Assembly (NCBI GenBank): GCA_019753175.1
Contig: JAIELK010000016.1
Location: 1 to 64,000, forward strand
From: Hyphomonadaceae bacterium
Lineage (GTDB): Bacteria > Pseudomonadota > Alphaproteobacteria > Caulobacterales > Aquidulcibacteraceae
DNA: 64,000 bases
Direction: 5' to 3'
How positions within the stretch are numbered: the stretch's first letter is position 1; every line of letters begins with the position of its first letter. Both the position numbers and the translations under genes were made by a program. A model generated the notes under the pieces. That model ran no database searches. It had not been told where the DNA came from and worked only from the letters and a program-made list of their open reading frames with translations. This document shows, piece by piece, positions 39,051 through 64,000 of the stretch.

Positions 39051-39521
39051 ATGACCCGCTTTGCGCTCCAGTTCGGACAGACCCAGCCTGGCCTCACCTA
39101 TATCGAACGCACCACCGCCTATGGGCTCTGCGCCCGCGGCGAAACCCAGATCGCGATTGTGCAGATCGGCAGGAAGGCGCCCTATGAGTACGATCTTCCC
39201 GGCGGCGGCGTCGAAGCCGACGAGGACGAGGCGGGCGCTCTGATGCGCGAATTCCAAGAGGAGACTGGGCTCACCGTGTGGCCGACGCGCGTACTCGGCC
39301 GCGCGGGGCAGTTTTGGGTCAACAAGGGTGAACCGCGTAATTCGCTATCGACGTTCTATGAGGTCGAACTGTCTGCTGACGACAGCCAGCCGACCGAGCC
39401 GGATCATGCGCTGCTTTGGATGTCGCCGCTCGAAGCGCTCACGCGCGTGCGCCACGAGTCGCACGGGTGGGCCATCATGCACTGGTATCGAGGCCGACGC
39501 GTCGGCAGCACCGGCGGTTAG
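39051..39521 (+). CDS. NUDIX hydrolase
   Basis: 156 residues. The complete Nudix box is present within GGVEADEDEAGALMREFQEE followed by TGL, fitting GX5EX7REUXEEXGU at ~60-82. These enzymes cut nucleoside-diphosphate-linked compounds with divalent metal; the substrate is not predictable. An ATG at 39039 would add four residues. The gene ends with a 4-nt overlap with the convergent gene at 39518. Confidence 0.92.
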   Translation: MTRFALQFGQTQPGLTYIERTTAYGLCARGETQIAIVQIGRKAPYEYDLPGGGVEADEDEAGALMREFQEETGLTVWPTRVLGRAGQFWVNKGEPRNSLSTFYEVELSADDSQPTEPDHALLWMSPLEALTRVRHESHGWAIMHWYRGRRVGSTGG

Positions 39522-40315
39522 GCGTCTTCGTCGTTGCCCTGACCGCGAAGCGGATTCAGATCGCCGATGAAGGTAAGCAAGTTGCGTGAAGGCAGCTCTG
39601 GCTGCGCATAAGGCTCAAGCTCGACAAGGTCAGGCGATGTGACTTGAAGCAAGGGGGTTCGCGCCGCCTGGATCGGCGCAATGACCTCGAGGTCCTCGAA
39701 TGAGGCCGGTTCCATCACATCCACCGCGCCGCCCAAGGCGACTGTGCTTTGGACAGGCGTGATCACGCTGCTGTCAGTGACAACAACCGGCGCCGTGACT
39801 TCTATGGTCTCCGCCACCATCGGCGCCCCGTCGTCCGCCACGCGATGCGCGCCGGCAGCTACGACAGCGAGCGCGCTGGCCACGGACAATACAATCGACG
39901 CCCCCATCGGGGGTGGCTTAGGGGGCGCGGTGTCGTACTCGACGGCCTCCAGTCGCTGCAAAAGCGCACGCCACACGTGACGGCTATCGCTGGGGCGATC
40001 GCCACGCCAAGTGGTGAAGTCAAGCACCGGGGCCATTCGTTCAATACGCGGATGGCGCGGAGTCGTTGCTATTTCAACCAGGCGTATGGGACTGATGCTG
40101 CGCGCCCAGTCCAACATGTATTGCGAGAACACTGCGTCCTGAGACCACACGACGATCACGGCTTCACGCGCAGTCTTGGCGTCATCGAGTTCTTCGAGCG
40201 ATTGGCGCCCGTAGCAGACACGCACACGATGTTGTTCAGCCTCGAGGAAACGCCCAAGCGAGTCTGTCGCCCAATGGAGCGTGTCGAACGTGCAAATTAT
40301 GCGAACATCAATCAC
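39518..40315 (-). CDS. TIR-like domain protein with one membrane helix
   Basis: 265 residues. The first ~115 residues look like a compact alpha/beta domain: VRIICTF, HRVRVCYG, AVIVVWSQDAVFSQYMLDWAR and PIRLVEIATT alternate as strands and helices, as in TIR domains. I see no clear catalytic Glu in the expected helix, so NADase activity is doubtful. One hydrophobic segment (~138-156, ASIVLSVASALAVVAAGAH) is followed by an Ala/Val/Thr-rich acidic tail of ~105 residues, probably periplasmic. Function unknown; the TIR-like call is structural inference. Confidence 0.6.
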   Translation of the reverse strand: MIDVRIICTFDTLHWATDSLGRFLEAEQHRVRVCYGRQSLEELDDAKTAREAVIVVWSQDAVFSQYMLDWARSISPIRLVEIATTPRHPRIERMAPVLDFTTWRGDRPSDSRHVWRALLQRLEAVEYDTAPPKPPPMGASIVLSVASALAVVAAGAHRVADDGAPMVAETIEVTAPVVVTDSSVITPVQSTVALGGAVDVMEPASFEDLEVIAPIQAARTPLLQVTSPDLVELEPYAQPELPSRNLLTFIGDLNPLRGQGNDEDA

Positions 40316-47112: not shown

Positions 47113-48474
47113 TCAACGCGCAGGCATCATCTCCACCAGTGCGCCGCCGACCGACATCGCGATCTGCGGAAAGGCATCCTTCAGGGCAGGGTCGATGCCG
47201 GTGTAGAGCGGATTGACCGGTGACAACGGGCCGATCCGCAGTCCGACGCGCGTCGGCCGCAGCGTGCCGGCGCTCTTCACCAGTTCCAGCATGAACGGCA
47301 ATTGCGATCCGCCGCCGGCGAGCACGATGTCGATGACATCGGCTTGCGCGGCCTCGGCCCGATCGATGACGCGCGAGAGGCTGGCGGCGATGGTCTGCCG
47401 GAGCGCGGTCAGATAGGTGCGAAAATTGGCGTCTTCCATCAGCTCGTTGGCGCGGATGGTGGTGGCCATCCAGCCGGTCTTGAGCGCGCACTTACCGGTT
47501 GTGAAGAGTTCGCGCTTGAGTTCTCGCGCCGAGAGCAGGGCGGTGCGGAGCAGCCGCACTTCGTCGTCGCGGCTTTTCTCGCCGCCTCGCTTACGGATGT
47601 AGAGTTCGACCAGGATACGGTCGATCTCGTCACCGGCCAGCGCGCTGCACTGACGCGCCTCCTTGATCTCGGTCAGCGCCGGGGGCTCGGTACGCTCGTC
47701 GAACTCAAACGCGGCGATGTCGACGGTCCCCGCGCCCATGTCGAACACCATGACAAAGCGCGTGGGCGCGTTGGTAAAGGCAAGCGCGGTCGCCGCCGCT
47801 GCGTGCGGTTCGAAGATGCCGGTCTCGAGCAGTCCGTTGCCTGGCGACACAGCGGCACGGTCGAGTGCGTCACGACACTGGGCGATGGAGACGCCCTCCG
47901 GCGACAGCAGCAGTTCGCCCAGGCGCTGCGAGATCGCCGCCGCCTCGTTGAACATCAGCTCAAAGGTCTTGTCGGCGCCGCTGCCGGGTTTCCAGACGGG
48001 ACTTGTGTAGCGGCGGCGCGCATTGGCGACGACATTGGGAATGTTCGGCGCGAGGTCGATGGCCTCGCGGATGAGACGATCGAGGTAGGCAAGATAAAGA
48101 ACCAGCGCGTCGCGATTCTTGAACGTTCCCGTTGGGTCCATCGAAGGACGCAACTTCATCGCCAGCGCGTCGTTGACGTTGCTCGCGCCCAGTACGGTCT
48201 TGAACGACAACAGCGGATCGCGACTGGCTTCCACGCCGCGCCGCGCGAGTTCGAGTGCGGCGGGGCCGAAATACATCCGGCCATTGTCGACATAAAGCAC
48301 TGACGGCGTCAGCAGCGGGTGCTCGGCGCGGGCGATGGCGCCGATCGGCAAGGGCTTGACGCCGACTTCGAGTGGCAAAGTCGGGTCGAGGCAGATTGAG
48401 GCCTTCGATAGCGCGGTGCCGAAGTCGATGCAGATGCGCGCGCGCTCGTATCGATGAAGATCGCCGTCGTCCAT
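47113..48474 (-). CDS. Hsp70-like ASKHA ATPase without a substrate-binding domain
   Basis: 453 residues, starting at the ATG at 48474 (CAAGG ribosome site). The actin/Hsp70 nucleotide motifs are present: ICIDFGTALSKASI, FVMVFDMGAGTVDIAAFEF and DIVLAGGGSQLPFML. There is no C-terminal beta-sandwich of DnaK, so it does not bind peptides like a chaperone. Related Hsp70-like proteins in alphaproteobacteria are uncharacterised. It is single, between a small membrane protein and a two-component system. Confidence 0.85.
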   Translation of the reverse strand: MDDGDLHRYERARICIDFGTALSKASICLDPTLPLEVGVKPLPIGAIARAEHPLLTPSVLYVDNGRMYFGPAALELARRGVEASRDPLLSFKTVLGASNVNDALAMKLRPSMDPTGTFKNRDALVLYLAYLDRLIREAIDLAPNIPNVVANARRRYTSPVWKPGSGADKTFELMFNEAAAISQRLGELLLSPEGVSIAQCRDALDRAAVSPGNGLLETGIFEPHAAAATALAFTNAPTRFVMVFDMGAGTVDIAAFEFDERTEPPALTEIKEARQCSALAGDEIDRILVELYIRKRGGEKSRDDEVRLLRTALLSARELKRELFTTGKCALKTGWMATTIRANELMEDANFRTYLTALRQTIAASLSRVIDRAEAAQADVIDIVLAGGGSQLPFMLELVKSAGTLRPTRVGLRIGPLSPVNPLYTGIDPALKDAFPQIAMSVGGALVEMMPAR

Positions 48475-48595
48475 AAAGCCTTGGCTCAAGAATTACAGGG
48501 CGCCCCGAAGGGCGAGTTGGTCAGACTTATAGGCTGCGCTGACAGTTGGAAAGCGGGCCTTCTGCGTTCGCCAAAATGCTTTGTGGAACGATGAC

Positions 48596-56866: not shown

Positions 56867-58798
56867 TTAGTTCGGCACGCTCATGTTCTTGCCCGCAAAC
56901 ACGGCTTGCCAGCTCTCGAGTTCCTCGACGAAAATGGTTTCGACCGCACGAGCAAGGCGGACAGCGGCGCTGTAGTCGAGCGCGTGGTGCCTTAAGCGCT
57001 CACTGTCCAGATGCTGCAGCAGCAGCGCGAGTTTGCCGGCGGCGACATCCGATATTGTGGCGAAGCGCTCGAAGTCGCCAAAGAACCGTATGCCCGATAT
57101 GGTGGCGCCGGACATCGGCAGCGCCACGGCAAGGAAGGCGGCCCACGGCTCAAACCAGGCCGGCGCGGTCAACTGCATGAAGTTGAGTGTGACTGCGATC
57201 ACCGAAATCAAGAGGGCGGCGCTGAACAGCCGGATCGACCATGTGTCGAGGCGTTTGTGAACGGCATGAAGACGCGCGGCTTTCATGCGGTGATAATTCA
57301 GCTGATCGTCGATGTGCTGCCGCAGTACCTCGAATAAGTAAGTTTGGAGGTACTGTGCGCTGATCTTAAGCGGCGGCAGCCCTATTTCGCGGATGCTAGC
57401 GCGGGCGTATTCTTCCGGCCAAGACGATTGTACGCTGCGGGGCCAGCGCGCTGCTGGGCGTATGACGCCCAGCGGCAGCAGAAAAAAGTTGTGGCGCAAG
57501 TATTCGGCGACACGCCGGCTTTCTAACCAACGCCGATGCCAGTGCAGATTCACGCCAAGCAACGTGACGATGATGATCAACGCGATGAGAGCGAGCTCTG
57601 CAATGCCGAACCCGAGATCTCCTTCAAGGCCCAATGGGGCGTCGCCGGTATTGGCAAGCACCGCCAAAGCCGCCAGCACAAAGTTGAGCACCATTCCACC
57701 GCGATAGGCGTCGGAGAGTTCAGTGGCGATCGAGTCGGCCCAGCCGAAGCGATCGCTGAACCTAGTCGCCAGGGTTTCAAGCCACGGATTGTTCGCGCCC
57801 ACGAGGCTTGTTAGTTGAAGCAGGGCGCTCCGCCACTGTAATGCACCGTGTTCGCTCGGAGCCGGAAATCTCACGCGCAGCGCCGTCGATGATGACTGGG
57901 GCGTGGACCCGAAGAGGCGCTCAATCAACCGATAGGCCCGCCAGAGCCAGAAGTTGCCGTGGCGCTGGCGTTCGCGGAGGTAGCGCGCAGCAGCGCCGGT
58001 TGGCAGGCAACACCGGCCGCGTTGCTCCAACTCGGCGAGTAGGATGGCGATGGCGCTGGCGCTGGGCTCAGGCGGGTTTGCGATATCTTCCGGCGATCGC
58101 AGCAGCCGGACGCGATCCGGCGCGGCGGCGTCAATCCAGATGACGGGCAGCTCCGCTTCCAGCGCTTGGCGGATTGTGTGGCCGGTGCCGCCAATAAAGG
58201 CGTGCGATCCGCCATCCCAGATGGCCAAGAGCAGGTCGCTCTGATCAAGCGCCGTACGCGCCGCCAAGGCGTAACGTTCCGAGGCTTCCGCCTCGAAGCT
58301 GTCCTTCAGGTCGCTGTCGCGCGCAGCGCCGATCCAGCCAGCAGCAAAGTGCTCGTCACGCTCGGCCAATGCGAATACGCGCGCCCTGCGCGCGAGCGAG
58401 AAAAAAACCGAAATGGCGGCATTTTCTGAGGGGGTGACGTTTTTCTCGGCATCCGCCGCCTGTTCAAGCAATGCACGGCGCGTCTCTTCGTCGTCGCCCG
58501 GACCAGATGCGCCGATCGCGCTTGTCAACGCGGGGCCGAAAGGCAGGGGCGCGACAATCTCCCAGTTGAGGGCTTGCCCAAGGCGCGCCGCAGCCTGGTC
58601 GACCCCATCGGCGAGCATTGTATGAAGTTTGATTTGGGCAAAACCGGCGCTCGCTTCATGGATGACCGCGAAGGCGGTGTTGAGCGCATCTTCCACGGCG
58701 GCGCTTCGGCCAGTCAGCCCGGGATGTGCGCTGCGGTGGCCGGTGACGGTGATCGACAGGCCCACCGCGGCTGCTGGTGGTCGTGCGCGCCGCCGCAT
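56867..58798 (-). CDS. SLOG-like domain protein with four TM helices (conflict-system effector candidate)
   Basis: 643 residues from the ATG at 58798 (AAGGGGG upstream; a GTG at 58804 adds two). The N-terminal ~250 residues look like a SLOG/LOG-type nucleotide-binding fold: ITVTGHRSAHPGL at the first strand, MLADGVDQAAARLG, IVAPLPF, then DLLLAIWDGGSHAFIGGTGHT and LPVIWID. A middle region has a few helices, then four TM helices: ~368-386, ~400-420, ~522-542 and ~550-572, with a VAEYLRH segment between pairs. In conflict systems a SLOG domain joined to SLATT-like membrane helices senses or binds a nucleotide signal and forms pores. It is divergent from the NACHT-FGE operon with 45 bp between starts. 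Confidence 0.75.
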   Translation of the reverse strand: MRRRARPPAAAVGLSITVTGHRSAHPGLTGRSAAVEDALNTAFAVIHEASAGFAQIKLHTMLADGVDQAAARLGQALNWEIVAPLPFGPALTSAIGASGPGDDEETRRALLEQAADAEKNVTPSENAAISVFFSLARRARVFALAERDEHFAAGWIGAARDSDLKDSFEAEASERYALAARTALDQSDLLLAIWDGGSHAFIGGTGHTIRQALEAELPVIWIDAAAPDRVRLLRSPEDIANPPEPSASAIAILLAELEQRGRCCLPTGAAARYLRERQRHGNFWLWRAYRLIERLFGSTPQSSSTALRVRFPAPSEHGALQWRSALLQLTSLVGANNPWLETLATRFSDRFGWADSIATELSDAYRGGMVLNFVLAALAVLANTGDAPLGLEGDLGFGIAELALIALIIIVTLLGVNLHWHRRWLESRRVAEYLRHNFFLLPLGVIRPAARWPRSVQSSWPEEYARASIREIGLPPLKISAQYLQTYLFEVLRQHIDDQLNYHRMKAARLHAVHKRLDTWSIRLFSAALLISVIAVTLNFMQLTAPAWFEPWAAFLAVALPMSGATISGIRFFGDFERFATISDVAAGKLALLLQHLDSERLRHHALDYSAAVRLARAVETIFVEELESWQAVFAGKNMSVPN

Positions 58799-58843
58799 TG
58801 ACACCCCCTTTGATCTCTCGGGAGGTTACAATAGTGTCACGCC
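58799..58843. promoter_or_regulatory. Very short divergent intergenic region
   Basis: 45 bp between the starts of the SLOG-TM gene and the NACHT-FGE operon. It must hold, or overlap, both promoters, which would tie their expression together. GGGAGG at 58820-58825 is ~18 bp from the ATG at 58844, too far for normal ribosome binding, so the + strand mRNA may be leaderless or start further in. Confidence 0.35.
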
Positions 58844-61800
58844 ATGATTGGCGCAAACACAGTTGATGGCTTCGTTAGCACCCGCAGCGAGGGCAAACGG
58901 ATCGGCCAGCGGCTTATGTCCCGTTTGCTTAAGTGTGAGCCGGTGATCCGAGCAGCCGGCCATGCCGACTGCAAAGGCGACCATGCCATTGCGGCGCGGC
59001 GCTTCATTATGGGCGCGCACTTCGGTGTGGTTTTTCTCGAGCCGGCCGGATTTCGTTCCGAACCTGGCGACCCATGGCCGTGCTTTCAGTTCATCGAAAT
59101 GAAAGCGATGTGGGAGCGGGCAAGCAAGGCCGAGCGAACGCGTAAGCCATTCTTGGGCATCCCCGTGATCTTGGACCACGCAGCGGCTGGCTCGGTCACA
59201 CGCTACTTCGATCGCCTGATAGCGGAAGCCGCCGCCCACAACGACGCCGATCCGATCAAGTGGTGGTCCGACCAGAGCTGCCTAATTCTACGTGATTATA
59301 GAAACCTTGGATCGGAACAGTTTGTCGAAGGTCTTAAGCTCATTGTTGGCCGCATCGAAGAGCACATGGACACGATCAGGGGCGTGGTGGAGGACGCGCC
59401 GCCCTTGAACATCTCCCAAGCGTGCGTCGCGCCTAATCAACCTCAGGACGCTACGACCAAGGACGGCATCGAAGATCTTGCTGCGGCGATGCAGGCTTTT
59501 GCCGAACTGGAGCGAGACTATTTGCAGAGCGCGATTGAGAACTGGTGTCGCGCCAGAATCGCCGACGGCGTAACACTGTCCGACAGCGCCTTTAGGTTCC
59601 AACCGTCGCGCTTCGTCGAGTTTACCGCTAGTCAGCACGCTCGCGATGGCAGTCGCGATGTTTCGATCGAACGTCATCCGCTGTCGCATTGGTTGTTCAA
59701 GACACAATCTTTGCCGTTGCTCCTCGTGGGTGAAGGGGGCGCTGGAAAAACAACGGCGCTGACGGCCGCGGCGTGCGCCTTCGCAGCGGGGATTGATCCG
59801 GGCCTCAAGCAATTTGGTAAGCAGATCGCGCATGGACAATGGCTTGAGACAGCCGCGGCGAGTCTGTCCGGAAACGATGCGCCCGCTTATATGCCTGTCG
59901 TCATGCGCTGTGTGGATGCGGTGGCATCCATCGGCGATCAGACCATCGACAGCGATGCGCTGATAGCGGCGGTGCTTGCGCATATGCGCAAGGTTGCGGA
60001 GCAAGAGGCGGACGCGCAACCGGGCAAGCGCGAGCGCGACCAGTTTGTCGCCAGACTGAAGCGTCAACCGTATGTGCTTATGCTTGACGGTCTCGATGAG
60101 TTGGCCGACCCCGATAAGCGTCACCAACTGTTCCTGGGGGCGAACAATCTGGTTCGGCGTCTGCACCAAAGCCACTTCCGTGTGATGGTGACAACGCGGG
60201 GTGGTTATGAGCCTAAGAGCGATGACGTGACGCGGGTCGTCCTCGACGAGCCGCTCGCATCTTGGGAGCACATCGAAACATTCATCCGGCGGTTTACGTC
60301 AAAGCGTCAGGAGCAGGAAAAGCTCTTGGCGGCTGCACGAGCGGTGCGGGCGCTTGGCGACGGGCGTAACGCGCCTTTACGCACGCCGTTGTTACTGAGT
60401 GCGTTTTGCTGCATTGCACTGGAGCATGCCGATCCGGCGACAAGGCTCTCCCAATTCTGCGAGCGCACTGTCGACTATCTGCTCCATGGCAGGAATTTTT
60501 CGGCCCTCGGCGCGGCGCAGCTAAGGTCGGCGGAAAAGACGGAAGAGATCGCGCGACGAATTCTTCGAAAGTTCGCACACGCCTTCGTAACGAACAGACG
60601 CGGCGAGATTCGACTGGGCGAAGACGCAGTCGGAGCGTGGCTGCGCCGCGAAGCGGCGGGTCTGGGCTTGAGCCCGCTCGACCTGCCGGCGGCGAAAGCG
60701 ATTGTGCGTGAGCTTGCAGCGCAATCCAATCTGTTCCGCCTCGAAGGCGACAACACATATGCCTTCGACAACAACGCCATGTTCTGGGAGTACCTTGCCG
60801 GAGAAGAGATTGCGGCCACCGGCCGTTCCGGCGAGTTCGCTGCGGCGCAGCGGATCGAGGCGCCGGCGTGGTGCTCGGCGCTCAAGTTCGCGCACGCCAT
60901 TAACATCGACTCAGCGCCGGAGGGGCAGGCGCTTGATGCGCCAGTGACGTTGCTTCAGCTAGCCGCCTCCAATAGCGACGCGGCGCGTGCGTTCACGGTA
61001 GCGCACTTTGCGCTCGGGATGCTGGGCGAGGCCGTGCCGGCTGACGACATCGACGGCGAGATAGCATCAGAGCTGCGCGCCGTGCTTCGATCGGCTGTCG
61101 ATGTCTATCGCAAGTGGCATAAGGATTGGCGCGCGTCGACGCGCGCTACCTACTGCGACACATTCTACCGAATCGGGCGGCGCAATAACGCGGAGCGAAC
61201 AGCGCTAGCGGTTGATCAGATGCTCGAGATGATGCTGGCGCCGCGGCGGCGCTGGATCGAAGTCAACTCATCGGACCTGCCGGCCGGCTTCATGGTCGCT
61301 GACGCGCCTGTTCTGGTGTCGGAGTATCGGCGCTTTGTCGACGACCCGGCGGCCCATGAAGACAGATGGTGGCCCAATGCGAGACCCACCCGGGCGGAAC
61401 AGAATCCGCGTCTTCTTATCGATGATCCGAGTGATCTTCATGCGGCCGCAGTGAAACGCCGTGATGGCTGGGTCGAGCAGATGGAGCGCCCCGGTTCGCC
61501 GGTGGTTTCCGTCAGTTTCTATGAAGCGGTGGCCTACGCTTTGTGGTTCGACCAGCGGTCTCGCGCTGCGCCCGAAGGCCTGCAACAGCATGAGGTGATA
61601 CGTCTGCCGACTGAGCTAGAGTGGGCGGCGCTGCTCCGCTGGGCGGCGAAGGGTGCACATTACCCGTGGGGTGAAGTCAGTTTGGAGGATAATCCTGAGC
61701 GGATAAACTGGCTCCGCGCTGACATAGATCACCCATCTTCTCCGGGCGTGTTTGATCCGATCGGTGCAGAAGGGCTCTACGATTTGGGGTCGAACGTGAG

Positions 61801-61996
61801 TTGCTGGACTATTCCTGTCGACGCCACCTCAATCTGGCCACCGGATTTGACTGGCCGCGCGGCCATGAGTGGTGGCTCGTGGCTGGAGTTCAAGCAAGAT
61901 GTGTTCGCGGTCGGGTCAGAGCCGAATCTCGAAATGCCAACTTACCGCCAATCAGGGCTTGGCTTCAGGTTAGTGCGGGCGCCGCGTCTGAAATGA
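58844..61996 (+). CDS. TIR-like/NACHT-type NTPase/FGE-sulfatase-fold protein
   Basis: 1050 residues in three parts. Residues 1-~180: an alpha/beta domain with VDGFVSTRSEGKRIGQRL at the start and CFQFIEMKAMWERA, which is like the TIR helix with the catalytic Glu; TIR identity is tentative. ~230-640: a NACHT-type STAND NTPase with Walker A VGEGGAGKTTAL (~294-305), Walker B YVLMLDGLDELADP (~409-422), sensor Arg in RVMVTTRGG and TPLLLSAFCC. ~810-1048: FGE-sulfatase (C-type-lectin) fold with VVSVSFYEAVAYALW, IRLPTELEWAALLRW, YPWGEV and MSGGSW ... GLGFRLVR. In such proteins NACHT is a switch, TIR an NAD-cutting effector and FGE a ligand sensor. First gene of a three-gene operon. Confidence 0.8.
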   Translation: MIGANTVDGFVSTRSEGKRIGQRLMSRLLKCEPVIRAAGHADCKGDHAIAARRFIMGAHFGVVFLEPAGFRSEPGDPWPCFQFIEMKAMWERASKAERTRKPFLGIPVILDHAAAGSVTRYFDRLIAEAAAHNDADPIKWWSDQSCLILRDYRNLGSEQFVEGLKLIVGRIEEHMDTIRGVVEDAPPLNISQACVAPNQPQDATTKDGIEDLAAAMQAFAELERDYLQSAIENWCRARIADGVTLSDSAFRFQPSRFVEFTASQHARDGSRDVSIERHPLSHWLFKTQSLPLLLVGEGGAGKTTALTAAACAFAAGIDPGLKQFGKQIAHGQWLETAAASLSGNDAPAYMPVVMRCVDAVASIGDQTIDSDALIAAVLAHMRKVAEQEADAQPGKRERDQFVARLKRQPYVLMLDGLDELADPDKRHQLFLGANNLVRRLHQSHFRVMVTTRGGYEPKSDDVTRVVLDEPLASWEHIETFIRRFTSKRQEQEKLLAAARAVRALGDGRNAPLRTPLLLSAFCCIALEHADPATRLSQFCERTVDYLLHGRNFSALGAAQLRSAEKTEEIARRILRKFAHAFVTNRRGEIRLGEDAVGAWLRREAAGLGLSPLDLPAAKAIVRELAAQSNLFRLEGDNTYAFDNNAMFWEYLAGEEIAATGRSGEFAAAQRIEAPAWCSALKFAHAINIDSAPEGQALDAPVTLLQLAASNSDAARAFTVAHFALGMLGEAVPADDIDGEIASELRAVLRSAVDVYRKWHKDWRASTRATYCDTFYRIGRRNNAERTALAVDQMLEMMLAPRRRWIEVNSSDLPAGFMVADAPVLVSEYRRFVDDPAAHEDRWWPNARPTRAEQNPRLLIDDPSDLHAAAVKRRDGWVEQMERPGSPVVSVSFYEAVAYALWFDQRSRAAPEGLQQHEVIRLPTELEWAALLRWAAKGAHYPWGEVSLEDNPERINWLRADIDHPSSPGVFDPIGAEGLYDLGSNVSCWTIPVDATSIWPPDLTGRAAMSGGSWLEFKQDVFAVGSEPNLEMPTYRQSGLGFRLVRAPRLK

Positions 61997-62012
61997 CATC
62001 TTTGGAGGGGGC

Positions 62013-63476
62013 ATGGCGAAGGGTAAGGCAAAGCGGGTTACAACGAAGCAGAAAGCCAAGGCGCCATCGCGTTCGAACCTGAAAAAGAACGTCACGAAGG
62101 GCGTCAAGGCGCGTGCGGCGCAAGCCAGCAAGAACGCGGCCAAGAACAAGGCGGCGAAGACCGAGAAAGCAACGTCACGCGGGCAGCCGCGGGGTTCGCC
62201 CGCTCGCGCAGAAAAACCCGCGGTGCGCGGCAAGCCAGAGCGTACGCTCCGGGTGGACCTCCGCCACGATAATGATTCCACGGAGGTGTTCTGGAGTTTG
62301 CCGGGACGGGCGCCACGCGATCGTGAAGCCAAGGTCGGAGAAGAAGGCTGGGCGTGGGATGGCTATTACGTGTCCGCCAGCCTCATTGACCGCCTTGGCG
62401 AGACAATCCGCGATCACCTGCATGAGCTTCAGGCGCTGGACTGGGTGGTGACGGACGAAGGCGTCAAGGGTGAGGTTACGCGCTGCAAAGCGATACTCGG
62501 CCAGCTCATTGACACGGGGCGTGAACTGCACGCCGCCATCCTGAGGGGTCTGGATGGCGATGATTTGTCGATGAAGCGGGCGGAGCGTTTCAGAGAATGG
62601 TTCAACAAGAACGTTCTTTCTGCGCCTGCCGGAACTTGGCGCATCGAAGTCATCCACGCCAAGTATTCGCGCACGATTGCACCATGGGCGCTGGCGTGCG
62701 TGCCGATGCGACGCGAGGACATGGCGCAGCTCGATCCGCGCAAGCCGGATCAGTATTCGGATTTCTGGGGAGCGCGATTTAAGCTTGCCGTGAGAGGCAA
62801 CACGCGCGACGCCCGCGACGGCTCGGACACACGCGACGGCGGCAACATGCGGCTGGCGTGTGTGCTCGAACTCGACGAGTATGCGGTGACTCAGATGGAG
62901 AGCCGCCGCCCCGGAGAGGCCGAACGGATGCGCGATCATCTGGGCTGGGATAAGGACGGTTACGTCGAACTCGCGCAGAAACACATGCGCAAGGATTTAT
63001 TTTGGTACGTATCGCTGCAGGCGGACAAGGGCTCTTTCGTAATCGGAAAGGACGCGATCAGCTCGTCGGACTTGGCCGAAAACTCGACACTCAACGCCAA
63101 CACCGATCGCATTGTCTTGATGCTCCTCGATGGCGATGCAGTGATAAGAGGCGACCGCGGTCCAGATTGGCTGCGGCACGCGCTTGCGCTTGGCCGTTCC
63201 GGGCTGATTGCGGTCGAAACCGACATTAGAAACAATCGGATCAAGCATTTCGGTTGGTACATCTTGCGCGACATCCTGACTTCGGAGAAGCCGCTGCTTG
63301 ACGCCATGTCGGCGGCCCGGCGCAAGTTCTGGCCGCTGGGTTTGCTGTACGGCATCTATTGCAGTCCAGTGCACACCGCAGTGATGCCGCCGCCTGCGCA
63401 AACCATCCGTCAGGTCGACGACTGGATCAGCATCATCCGCTCCATCCCGCAAGAAGAAGCGCAGAGTTCATCATGA
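62013..63476 (+). CDS. Lys/Ala-rich tail plus CHAT-like (caspase-fold) protein
   Basis: 487 residues. Residues 1-~75 are very rich in Lys and Ala (e.g. AKGKAKRVTTKQKAKA), a flexible basic tail like those binding nucleic acid. The rest resembles a CHAT domain: TIAPWALACVPMR (~220-232, the iPWELL-like strand) and, near the end, DWLRHALALGRSGLIAVETDI and LLDAMSAARRKFWPLGLLYG, matching the C-terminal CHAT blocks. The strand expected to carry the catalytic Cys reads RIVLMLLDGDAV, with no Cys, so protease activity is doubtful. Ribosome site GGAGGGGG. It lies 16 bp after the NACHT-FGE gene and overlaps the nSTAND gene by 4 nt (ATGA). Confidence 0.65.
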   Translation: MAKGKAKRVTTKQKAKAPSRSNLKKNVTKGVKARAAQASKNAAKNKAAKTEKATSRGQPRGSPARAEKPAVRGKPERTLRVDLRHDNDSTEVFWSLPGRAPRDREAKVGEEGWAWDGYYVSASLIDRLGETIRDHLHELQALDWVVTDEGVKGEVTRCKAILGQLIDTGRELHAAILRGLDGDDLSMKRAERFREWFNKNVLSAPAGTWRIEVIHAKYSRTIAPWALACVPMRREDMAQLDPRKPDQYSDFWGARFKLAVRGNTRDARDGSDTRDGGNMRLACVLELDEYAVTQMESRRPGEAERMRDHLGWDKDGYVELAQKHMRKDLFWYVSLQADKGSFVIGKDAISSSDLAENSTLNANTDRIVLMLLDGDAVIRGDRGPDWLRHALALGRSGLIAVETDIRNNRIKHFGWYILRDILTSEKPLLDAMSAARRKFWPLGLLYGIYCSPVHTAVMPPPAQTIRQVDDWISIIRSIPQEEAQSSS

Positions 63477-64000
63477 CTACGCCGAAGGCTAAAAACGCTA
63501 AGCAGCGACCAGCTGCAGAGCGGGCGCCCATAAGACCGGCTGCCCCCGTGACACGGCCTTATCCGGGTCTGCGTCACTATGACGAAGGCCGAGAATTGTA
63601 TTTCGCCGGTCGGGATCATGAGATCGAGGAGTGTGCGAGTTTGTTGCGAGATTCTCGCGTGCTGCTCCTTCATGGTCGAACCGGATGCGGCAAGTCGAGC
63701 TTCTTGCACGCCGGCGTCAAGCCGTTCTTGGCGCGAACCGGCTCGCCGATCAGCTTCGCGCAAGCGCGAGACGGTTTTTCGGTGGTGCGATCGACGGCTG
63801 ATCCCCTGCGAGCGGTGGGGTCCGCTTTGCTTGAGATTGCGGATTCCTTTATCGATCCAGAGAGCAACCCCAGTGGACGCGTGTTTGGACGGCTGGCGAG
63901 CGATGTCGATCCCGCGTCTATTGAAGCCGCCTTTCCCAAAGATGCGAAATTCAGAGAGAGTGTCCAAACGTCGGCGACAGCGGCGTTCTCTGCGCTGAAC
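63473..64000 (+). CDS. nSTAND1-type P-loop NTPase (partial, cut by window end)
   Basis: The first 176 codons of a longer gene; no stop before the window ends. After a basic tail (~1-28) comes the typical entry of nSTAND1 NTPases: PYPGLRHYDEGRELYFAGRD (~30-49), then Walker A LLLHGRTGCGKSSFLHAG (~63-80). The nSTAND1 domain is a signalling switch found in multi-gene conflict systems, usually followed by WD40 or other sensor repeats or joined to an effector. Those parts lie outside the window. The 4-nt overlap with the CHAT-like gene shows it is the third gene of the operon. Confidence 0.88.
   Translation, partial: MTTPKAKNAKQRPAAERAPIRPAAPVTRPYPGLRHYDEGRELYFAGRDHEIEECASLLRDSRVLLLHGRTGCGKSSFLHAGVKPFLARTGSPISFAQARDGFSVVRSTADPLRAVGSALLEIADSFIDPESNPSGRVFGRLASDVDPASIEAAFPKDAKFRESVQTSATAAFSALN

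Follow-up and report, generated by a model that had tools for sequence, protein, structure and literature searches.

Gene organization of the locus

The window analyzed here is the first 64 kb (64,000 nucleotides) of the 187-kb contig JAIELK010000016.1 of a Hyphomonadaceae bacterium (assembly GCA_019753175.1, genome 3.13 Mb), and at its right-hand end lie four neighboring genes, called A to D below, whose products combine SLOG-like, TIR-like, NACHT, FGE-sulfatase, CHAT-like and nSTAND1 domains. Genes B, C and D make up an operon that is conserved yet very rare, and the locus as a whole consists of two linked modules, this three-gene core and an apparently exchangeable membrane partner, A. All four open reading frames that an initial annotation had called in 56867-64000 were confirmed at their coordinates, and when the sequence was followed past position 64000, as had been proposed, D was found to run to 66640.

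56867-58804, minus strand: gene A, 645 amino acids (aa); SLOG-like N-terminal domain, then a DUF4231/SLATT region predicted to hold four membrane helices (2+2)
58805-58843, no strand: divergent gap between A and B, 39 base pairs (bp) from the GTG start of A
58844-61996, plus strand: gene B, 1050 aa; TIR-like domain, NACHT NTPase and FGE domain
62013-63476, plus strand: gene C, 487 aa; CHAT-like protein that has apparently lost the catalytic dyad
63473-66640, plus strand: gene D, continuing beyond the window on the same contig (L002:7473-10640), 1055 aa; nSTAND1 NTPase with a long conserved C-terminal region
66675-66749, minus strand: tRNA-Gly(ccc), starting 34 bp past the D stop codon, tRNA 3' end towards D

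The spacings that had been noted were also borne out. Genes B and C are separated by 16 bp, the ATGA at 63473-63476 is a 4-nt overlap of C and D, and the divergent starts of A and B lie 39 bp apart if A begins at its GTG codon or the 45 bp originally given if it begins at an ATG two codons on. The 39-bp gap leaves little room for two separate promoters. No match to a promoter consensus was found in 58805-58843, and promoter and terminator matches did not rise above the level of shuffled sequence.

Recurrence and distribution of the B-C-D operon

Complete B-C-D operons, in the same order and on one strand, were found in two genomes of other families, G083 (locus L006) and G370 (L009), and a third genome, G473 (L010), has B and part of C at a contig end with a relative of D on another contig, apparently a split copy. 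Identities are 24-44%. In the close family B precedes C in all four members, followed by C-D in each of the three where it is visible; since this order recurs in two genomes of other families it goes beyond chance, and the proposal that B, C and D are one operon is sustained by the tightly packed copies in G083 and G370. The spacing of C and D varies, from a 4-nt overlap in G083 to 49 bp in G370.

Protein searches identified relatives of C in 1 of 248 other genomes of the order and 2 of 384 other genomes of the class, none of the 20 same-genus genomes listed contained C, and a profile search with C through 397 other genomes of the phylum returned one distant relative, in genome G760. A scan of 84,980 species genomes for two short patterns, in whose results G083 did not appear, gave two loci, G370 and G473. 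Searches of viral contigs, phages and plasmids with C, of viral contigs with D, and of plasmids with B and the G760 protein yielded nothing useful; D matched 20 plasmid records, each covering at most 26% of the query.

In G370 a tRNA-His gene lies 141 bp beyond the end of D with its 3' end towards D, and in G083 a phage integrase lies 2.1 kb from D with a RepB-type primase further out. Judged from this patchy spread and these tRNA and integrase neighbors, the operon is probably mobile, and the pattern would suit insertion as part of mobile islands. No integration-type repeat of the tRNA-Gly end was found in 90 kb around the window locus. A flanking paaZ-like gene is present in 11 of 13 genus genomes, the bacterium's own included; in eight upstream regions examined for an empty site, neither a tRNA-Gly nor any of 16 further window genes that were tested lay near it.

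The initial annotation had treated the four genes as one set, and this part of it did not hold. A single fixed four-gene system was rejected, as A is absent beside both of the other B-C-D loci with visible surroundings (G083 and G370). Homologues of A are far commoner than those of C and have other TIR partners. The G473 locus, which shows 1.3 kb upstream of B, is not counted here.

Gene A: a SLOG-like domain with predicted membrane helices

58100-58765, minus strand: SLOG-like Rossmannoid domain of A (residues ~14-235), from alignments and model
57491-57748, minus strand: DUF4231 region of A (residues 353-438), membrane helix pair 1, from Pfam, hydropathy and model helices
56903-57325, minus strand: SLATT-like region of A (residues 494-634), membrane helix pair 2, from NCBIfam, model helices and hydropathy

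By prediction, A joins a SLOG-like domain to four membrane helices. An AlphaFold2 model from 17 homologues, with a predicted local distance difference test (pLDDT) score of 87.6, has a Rossmannoid domain followed by long helices. When this model was compared with known structures using Foldseek, DprA ranked first by E-value (prob 0.96), YpsA fifth (prob 1.00, TMt 0.64) and TM1055 ninth (prob 0.72), all three of them SLOG proteins, and the model and the fold comparison together point to a Rossmannoid SLOG/DprA-LOG fold. The TRPM channels TRPM5 and TRPM8 were also among the matches, at low probability and along with many unrelated proteins. Across the alignments of the domain the TGHR, GxD, PF and GGT positions are kept. 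A SLOG domain was not found in A by Pfam, there was no PDB match by sequence, and neither profile scans nor the model revealed a SIR2 or macro domain.

The membrane region matched PF14015 (DUF4231) above its curated cut-off (E 2.7e-6, 28.2 bits vs 24.7), NCBIfam SLATT_1 just under cut-off (4.3e-10, 39.6 bits vs 41) and Pfam SLATT_1 well under it (10.9 bits vs 26.3). Hydropathy of the 17 aligned A proteins gave four to five segments in 11 and three in 6, of which the window protein is one. In the description of A as a SLOG-like protein with membrane helices, the SLOG part is supported by AlphaFold2 and Foldseek, and the helices are predicted from model and hydropathy.

A second SLOG-like stretch is present in the same genome (G000:C2:151321-152001, locus L058); its match is confined to positions 1-256 of the A profile and is interrupted by a stop codon.

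Gene B: TIR-like, NACHT and FGE domains

58844-59368, plus strand: TIR-like domain of B with putative catalytic Glu85, from hhalign and alignment
59711-60211, plus strand: NACHT/AAA NTPase of B, from the motifs GEGGAGKT (Walker A) and VLMLDGLDE and from sub-threshold Pfam matches
61271-61978, plus strand: FGE-sulfatase (C-type-lectin-like) domain of B, PF03781

The TIR-like N-terminus ascribed to B was supported by profile-profile comparison, though Pfam-negative. A profile of the four B N-termini matched an alignment of ten TIR domains in hhalign (P 8e-6, prob 83.7), and the control alignments gave P values of 0.077 (SLOG), 0.12 (CHAT) and 0.57 (FGE). Among the PDB matches of the same profile 7 of 10 were the SARM1 TIR domain, the best at a non-significant E of 0.37. 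Residue Glu85, the putative catalytic glutamate of the TIR domain, is invariant in all four B proteins. In the B protein of G370 the only Pfam match in the TIR region was PF10137 (E 0.15).

The NACHT domain scored below cut-off in Pfam (NACHT 19.0 bits, AAA_16 24.0 bits) and is recognized by its motifs, the window protein having both the Walker A and Walker B motifs of a STAND-type NTPase; the G083 protein deviates by one residue from the Walker A pattern used. The FGE domain is far above its cut-off (PF03781, E 1.5e-22, 80.9 bits vs 23.3), and the annotation of B as a NACHT NTPase with an FGE domain holds. Because B has just one cysteine beyond residue 800, formylglycine chemistry is unlikely, and the FGE domain is probably a binding domain.

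Genes C and D: a CHAT-like protein and an nSTAND1 NTPase

63000-63017, plus strand: C residues 330-335, FWYVSL, candidate CHAT His position from hhalign against the G760 protein (MAFFT places the His position elsewhere)
63129-63149, plus strand: C residues 373-379, DGDAVIR, CHAT Cys position from hhalign and MAFFT

The C protein begins with a Lys/Ala-rich extension of approximately 70 aa. Pfam CHAT did not match it, the sole Pfam match being DUF2914, below cut-off, and direct hhalign comparison of the C family (three members) with CHAT alignments was not significant (P 0.4-0.8). The family did match the distant relative in G760 (L015:8089-9222) with a P of 3.8e-13. That protein in turn matched the CHAT alignments weakly (P 0.021 and 0.03, against 0.094 when reversed and 0.079 for the best among 60 shuffles), these alignments holding 6 sequences in one comparison and 9 in the other, as several of 14 CHAT domains were missed in extraction. 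By eye it has HYIGHHHD and INGCEGA where CHAT proteins keep His and Cys. As the direct match is not significant, the CHAT identity of C is transitive, by way of the G760 protein.

At the CHAT Cys position C has Asp375 by both hhalign and MAFFT, within a DGDAVIR stretch that is invariant in all three members. The His position is an invariant Leu335 according to hhalign; MAFFT puts Trp there in the window protein, Ser in G083 and His in G370 only. A His-Cys dyad at the CHAT positions was therefore not found. His215 and Cys450 are invariant elsewhere in C, and a relocated His/Cys pair may exist. An active protease was considered and thought unlikely, given Asp375 at the Cys position, a His position with no conserved His, and the negative Pfam CHAT result; a C protein with the CHAT fold would most likely be catalytically dead. 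The AlphaFold2 model of C, from three sequences, was poor (pLDDT 48), and a fold search with it was uninformative. Of the caspase-fold CHAT-like protein first proposed, the kinship with CHAT peptidases (TPR-CHAT and others) is supported indirectly, through a CHAT-like relative with His and Cys in place by eye; the catalytic dyad and a Pfam CHAT match were not found.

Gene D was confirmed as an nSTAND1 NTPase by PF20703 (E 7.9e-32, 111.7 bits vs a cut-off of 27.1). Walker A is present in all three D proteins; the strict Walker B pattern is found in one of the three, yet VIDQAEE is invariant in the alignment. The long C-terminal region is approximately 40% identical between genomes.

In G760 the CHAT-like gene and an nSTAND1 gene form a pair (L015:5063-9222) beside genes resembling those of a Tn7-type transposon; of the four proteins scanned there one had a Pfam match (AAA_22). 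Among 170 genomes of its order, G760 itself was the only one with a protein of this type.

It is distinctly improbable, in our judgment, that the locus holds two independent systems in one island, A and B as a TIR sensor with a SLOG membrane effector and C and D as a CHAT-like protein with nSTAND1. The G760 pair, in which the two genes share the same 4-nt overlap and no B was found alongside, favors such an arrangement. The constant position of B before C, with C-D following wherever visible, speaks against it, in that B-C-D appears to travel as a unit.

Partners of A homologues

Homologues of A were found in 22 of 150 genomes of the order, counting weak matches and the bacterium's own genome, and at 1e-20 in 7 of 230 genomes of the class, again with its own included. 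The 24 A loci that we opened (15 from the order, 6 from the class, 2 from plasmids, and the window) include kin, L031-L034 being one lineage and L040-L043 with L045 another. By a local TIR profile, 18 of the 24 have a TIR gene no more than 3.1 kb from the A homologue; eight of the TIR genes had served to seed the profile. Pfam TIR_2 independently detects the TIR domain in all 14 order loci that have one, below cut-off in 3 of them. Counted by lineage, 7 of 8 have a TIR neighbor where 0.26 would be expected (rough post hoc P 1.5e-11).

The TIR partners vary, and comprise TIR-WD40, TIR-FGE and TIR-TPR proteins and TIR domains with little else. The partner in L037 matched ThsB_TIR PF08937 (2.4e-7) and, weakly, the PADLOC ThsB model (4.1e-5), and that in L031 matched PF08937 right at cut-off. 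On a plasmid of the betaproteobacterium Caballeronia a TIR gene comes after a DUF4231 gene. A plasmid of Novosphingobium sp. RL4 (L046:5846-14266) carries in a row a TIR gene with C-terminal repeats that look TPR-like, a homologue of A (SLOG-like with four membrane helices, SLOG-4TM), a true CHAT gene (PF12770, 1.3e-42) that overlaps the A homologue by 4 nt and in which His and Cys seem intact on inspection, and then another large gene; this is likely a TIR/SLOG/CHAT system with a seemingly intact protease.

A second kind of neighbor has a RyR domain. In G083 a protein of this type (PF02026, 1.4e-10), with membrane segments by hydropathy, is encoded 1.1 kb from B and divergently from it, and its homologues are adjacent to an A homologue in G441 and one gene away from one in G317. 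Two A relatives with no TIR gene thus have a RyR-domain neighbor instead, in one case with a patatin gene between; in G317 (L057:3327-8742) SLOG-4TM, patatin phospholipase and RyR-domain genes form a tight row on one strand. The slot beside B-C-D is accordingly occupied by the SLOG-4TM protein in the window and by the RyR protein in G083, two kinds of gene product that also neighbor each other elsewhere.

These neighborhoods bear on the possibility that B-C-D acts alone, its TIR domain depleting nicotinamide adenine dinucleotide (NAD+) in abortive infection, and that A is a coincidental TIR-partner gene or one half of a decayed older system. We regard this as rather unlikely. Both of the other operons with visible surroundings do without A, none was found in the G370 genome by a profile search run with no positive control, A is transcribed divergently, and its homologues have other TIR partners. 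However, a divergent or head-to-head layout of A and TIR genes recurs in L037, L046 and L053, A starts 39-45 bp from B, and the G083 protein that lies near B has homologues near those of A.

Three further groups of loci were recorded. In L040-L043 and L045 a SLOG-4TM gene is paired with a TIR-FGE type protein (FGE tested in two) among neighbors common to the five genomes. In L031-L034 the SLOG-4TM gene and a TIR gene (of the TIR-TPR kind in L031) are 2-3 kb apart, with trypsin-like genes between and neighbors common to the four genomes. On an IMG/VR contig outside the 24 loci (L094:7662-9788) a SLOG-4TM homologue comes just after phage-tail-like genes, with no TIR among the reading frames read. 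Elsewhere in the window, the 265-aa product of 39518-40315 looks similar, on inspection, to the degenerate TIR domains of L040-L045 and has no Pfam match, and 47113-48489 encodes a 458-aa Hsp70/actin-like ATPase (PF00012, 7.7e-11), which falls outside the A-D finding.

Relation to known systems

In Thoeris, as set out in PMC11204291, the ThsB TIR protein signals to the SLOG domain of ThsA, and a TM-macro variant exists. The locus is similar in placing a TIR-like protein beside one with a nucleotide-binding domain, A joining its SLOG-like domain to membrane helices, and the TIR partners of A homologues in L037 and L031 match the ThsB-type family. It differs in that A has no SIR2 or macro match, so that the locus does not count as a Thoeris system, that the TIR domain of B sits on a NACHT-FGE STAND protein, that C and D are extra conserved genes, and that no PADLOC match was convincing.

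SLATT proteins have been predicted to be nucleotide-regulated membrane effectors (PMC7159879), and PMC9503650 predicts ADP-ribose-regulated membrane effectors of this kind beside TIR genes. Our locus likewise has a TIR-like gene adjoining a SLATT membrane protein; those in PMC9503650 are 2TM SLATT proteins, whereas A couples a SLOG-like domain to a region of four predicted helices and is accompanied by STAND/FGE sensors and by C and D. Combinations of STAND, TIR and FGE domains are typical of predicted conflict systems, according to PMC7159879 and PMC10907252. Those described in the latter share with our locus a central NACHT or nSTAND1 domain and an FGE (C-type lectin) end, sometimes have TIR or CHAT domains, and are diversified by retroelements; C and D here form a separate conserved pair with B. 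On this comparison A-D is a variant of known STAND/TIR conflict systems and not a separate category.

The same comparison tells against a non-defense role, in which a developmental, stress or signaling cassette would have been built from the same domains, as do the patchy distribution of B-C-D and its tRNA and integrase neighbors. Such a role would suit the A/TIR-FGE pair of L040-L043 and L045, which sits among shared neighbors in five genomes, untypical of a defense gene. Overall we consider it very improbable.

No description of the B-C-D operon, or of a SLOG-DUF4231/SLATT protein with TIR-STAND partners, was found in the searchable open-licence PubMed Central literature. The original SLOG/SLATT survey may well catalogue the architecture of A already.

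Proposed mechanism and significance

The reading that we favor is STAND-controlled, Thoeris-like signaling, in which the TIR domain of B makes an NAD-derived signal that A senses, B-C-D being a rare mobile immune operon that has recruited A; we hold it to be about evenly balanced between right and wrong. In its favor are the recurrence of B-C-D, its signs of mobility, the TIR genes near A homologues, the RyR link through G083, the support for TIR in B and SLOG in A, and the Thoeris and SLATT precedents. In the probably anti-phage defense that we infer, an invader would be recognized by B through its FGE domain, by D through its C-terminal region, or by both, and the NACHT and nSTAND1 NTPases would switch and oligomerize. 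Protein C, apparently a CHAT fold with no catalytic residues, would bridge or scaffold B and D, and the clustered TIR domains of B would turn NAD+ into an ADP-ribose-type signal. The SLOG domain of A would bind this signal and its membrane helices would open or cluster, the resulting membrane damage ending the infection.

Several results weigh against this interpretation. The exact A-B-C-D set was seen once and nowhere else in the genomes searched. In G370 no SLOG or RyR gene was found among the neighbors of B-C-D, and A was not found in that one genome by the search mentioned above, although a near-identical A profile did detect A homologues in other genomes. No Pfam TIR family, TIR_2 included, matched B, and a TIR profile built from the usual partners of A missed it as well, so that the TIR domain of B may make another product or none. 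By the local profile 6 of the 24 A loci have no TIR gene (the window, where B is missed, L036, and L054-L057), and in 5 of the 18 that do (L040-L043 and L045, one lineage) the Glu position is degenerate by eye, with a Pfam TIR score under cut-off in 3 of these 5. The Foldseek E-values of the DprA, YpsA and TM1055 matches to A were 0.014-0.066, none being 0.001 or lower, and ThsA was not among the 50 matches shown. PADLOC 2.0 gave for A to C only mad8, for B at 0.046, and for D nothing at 0.001.

A more ambitious reading, which we put forward as speculative and unlikely, is a mix-and-match immunity in which a dead CHAT scaffold links two unlike STAND switches, TIR-NACHT-FGE and nSTAND1, and a TIR-made nucleotide acts on interchangeable nucleotide-gated membrane proteins, SLOG-4TM in the window and the RyR-domain protein in G083. 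If this reading were true, the SLOG-4TM protein would correspond, in bacteria, to the TRPM channels, whose cytosolic part is also SLOG-like.

The favored reading, if right, would join NLR-like STAND sensors, TIR nucleotide signaling and nucleotide-gated membrane effectors, which are usually studied apart, in one compact set that poses whether a NACHT-FGE protein gates a TIR domain, whether the TIR product opens a SLOG membrane protein and what a dead CHAT protein does between two STAND proteins. TIR genes accompany A homologues chiefly in Alphaproteobacteria, with one case in a betaproteobacterium, and this association suggests a wider and little-described class of SLOG membrane proteins that have TIR partners.

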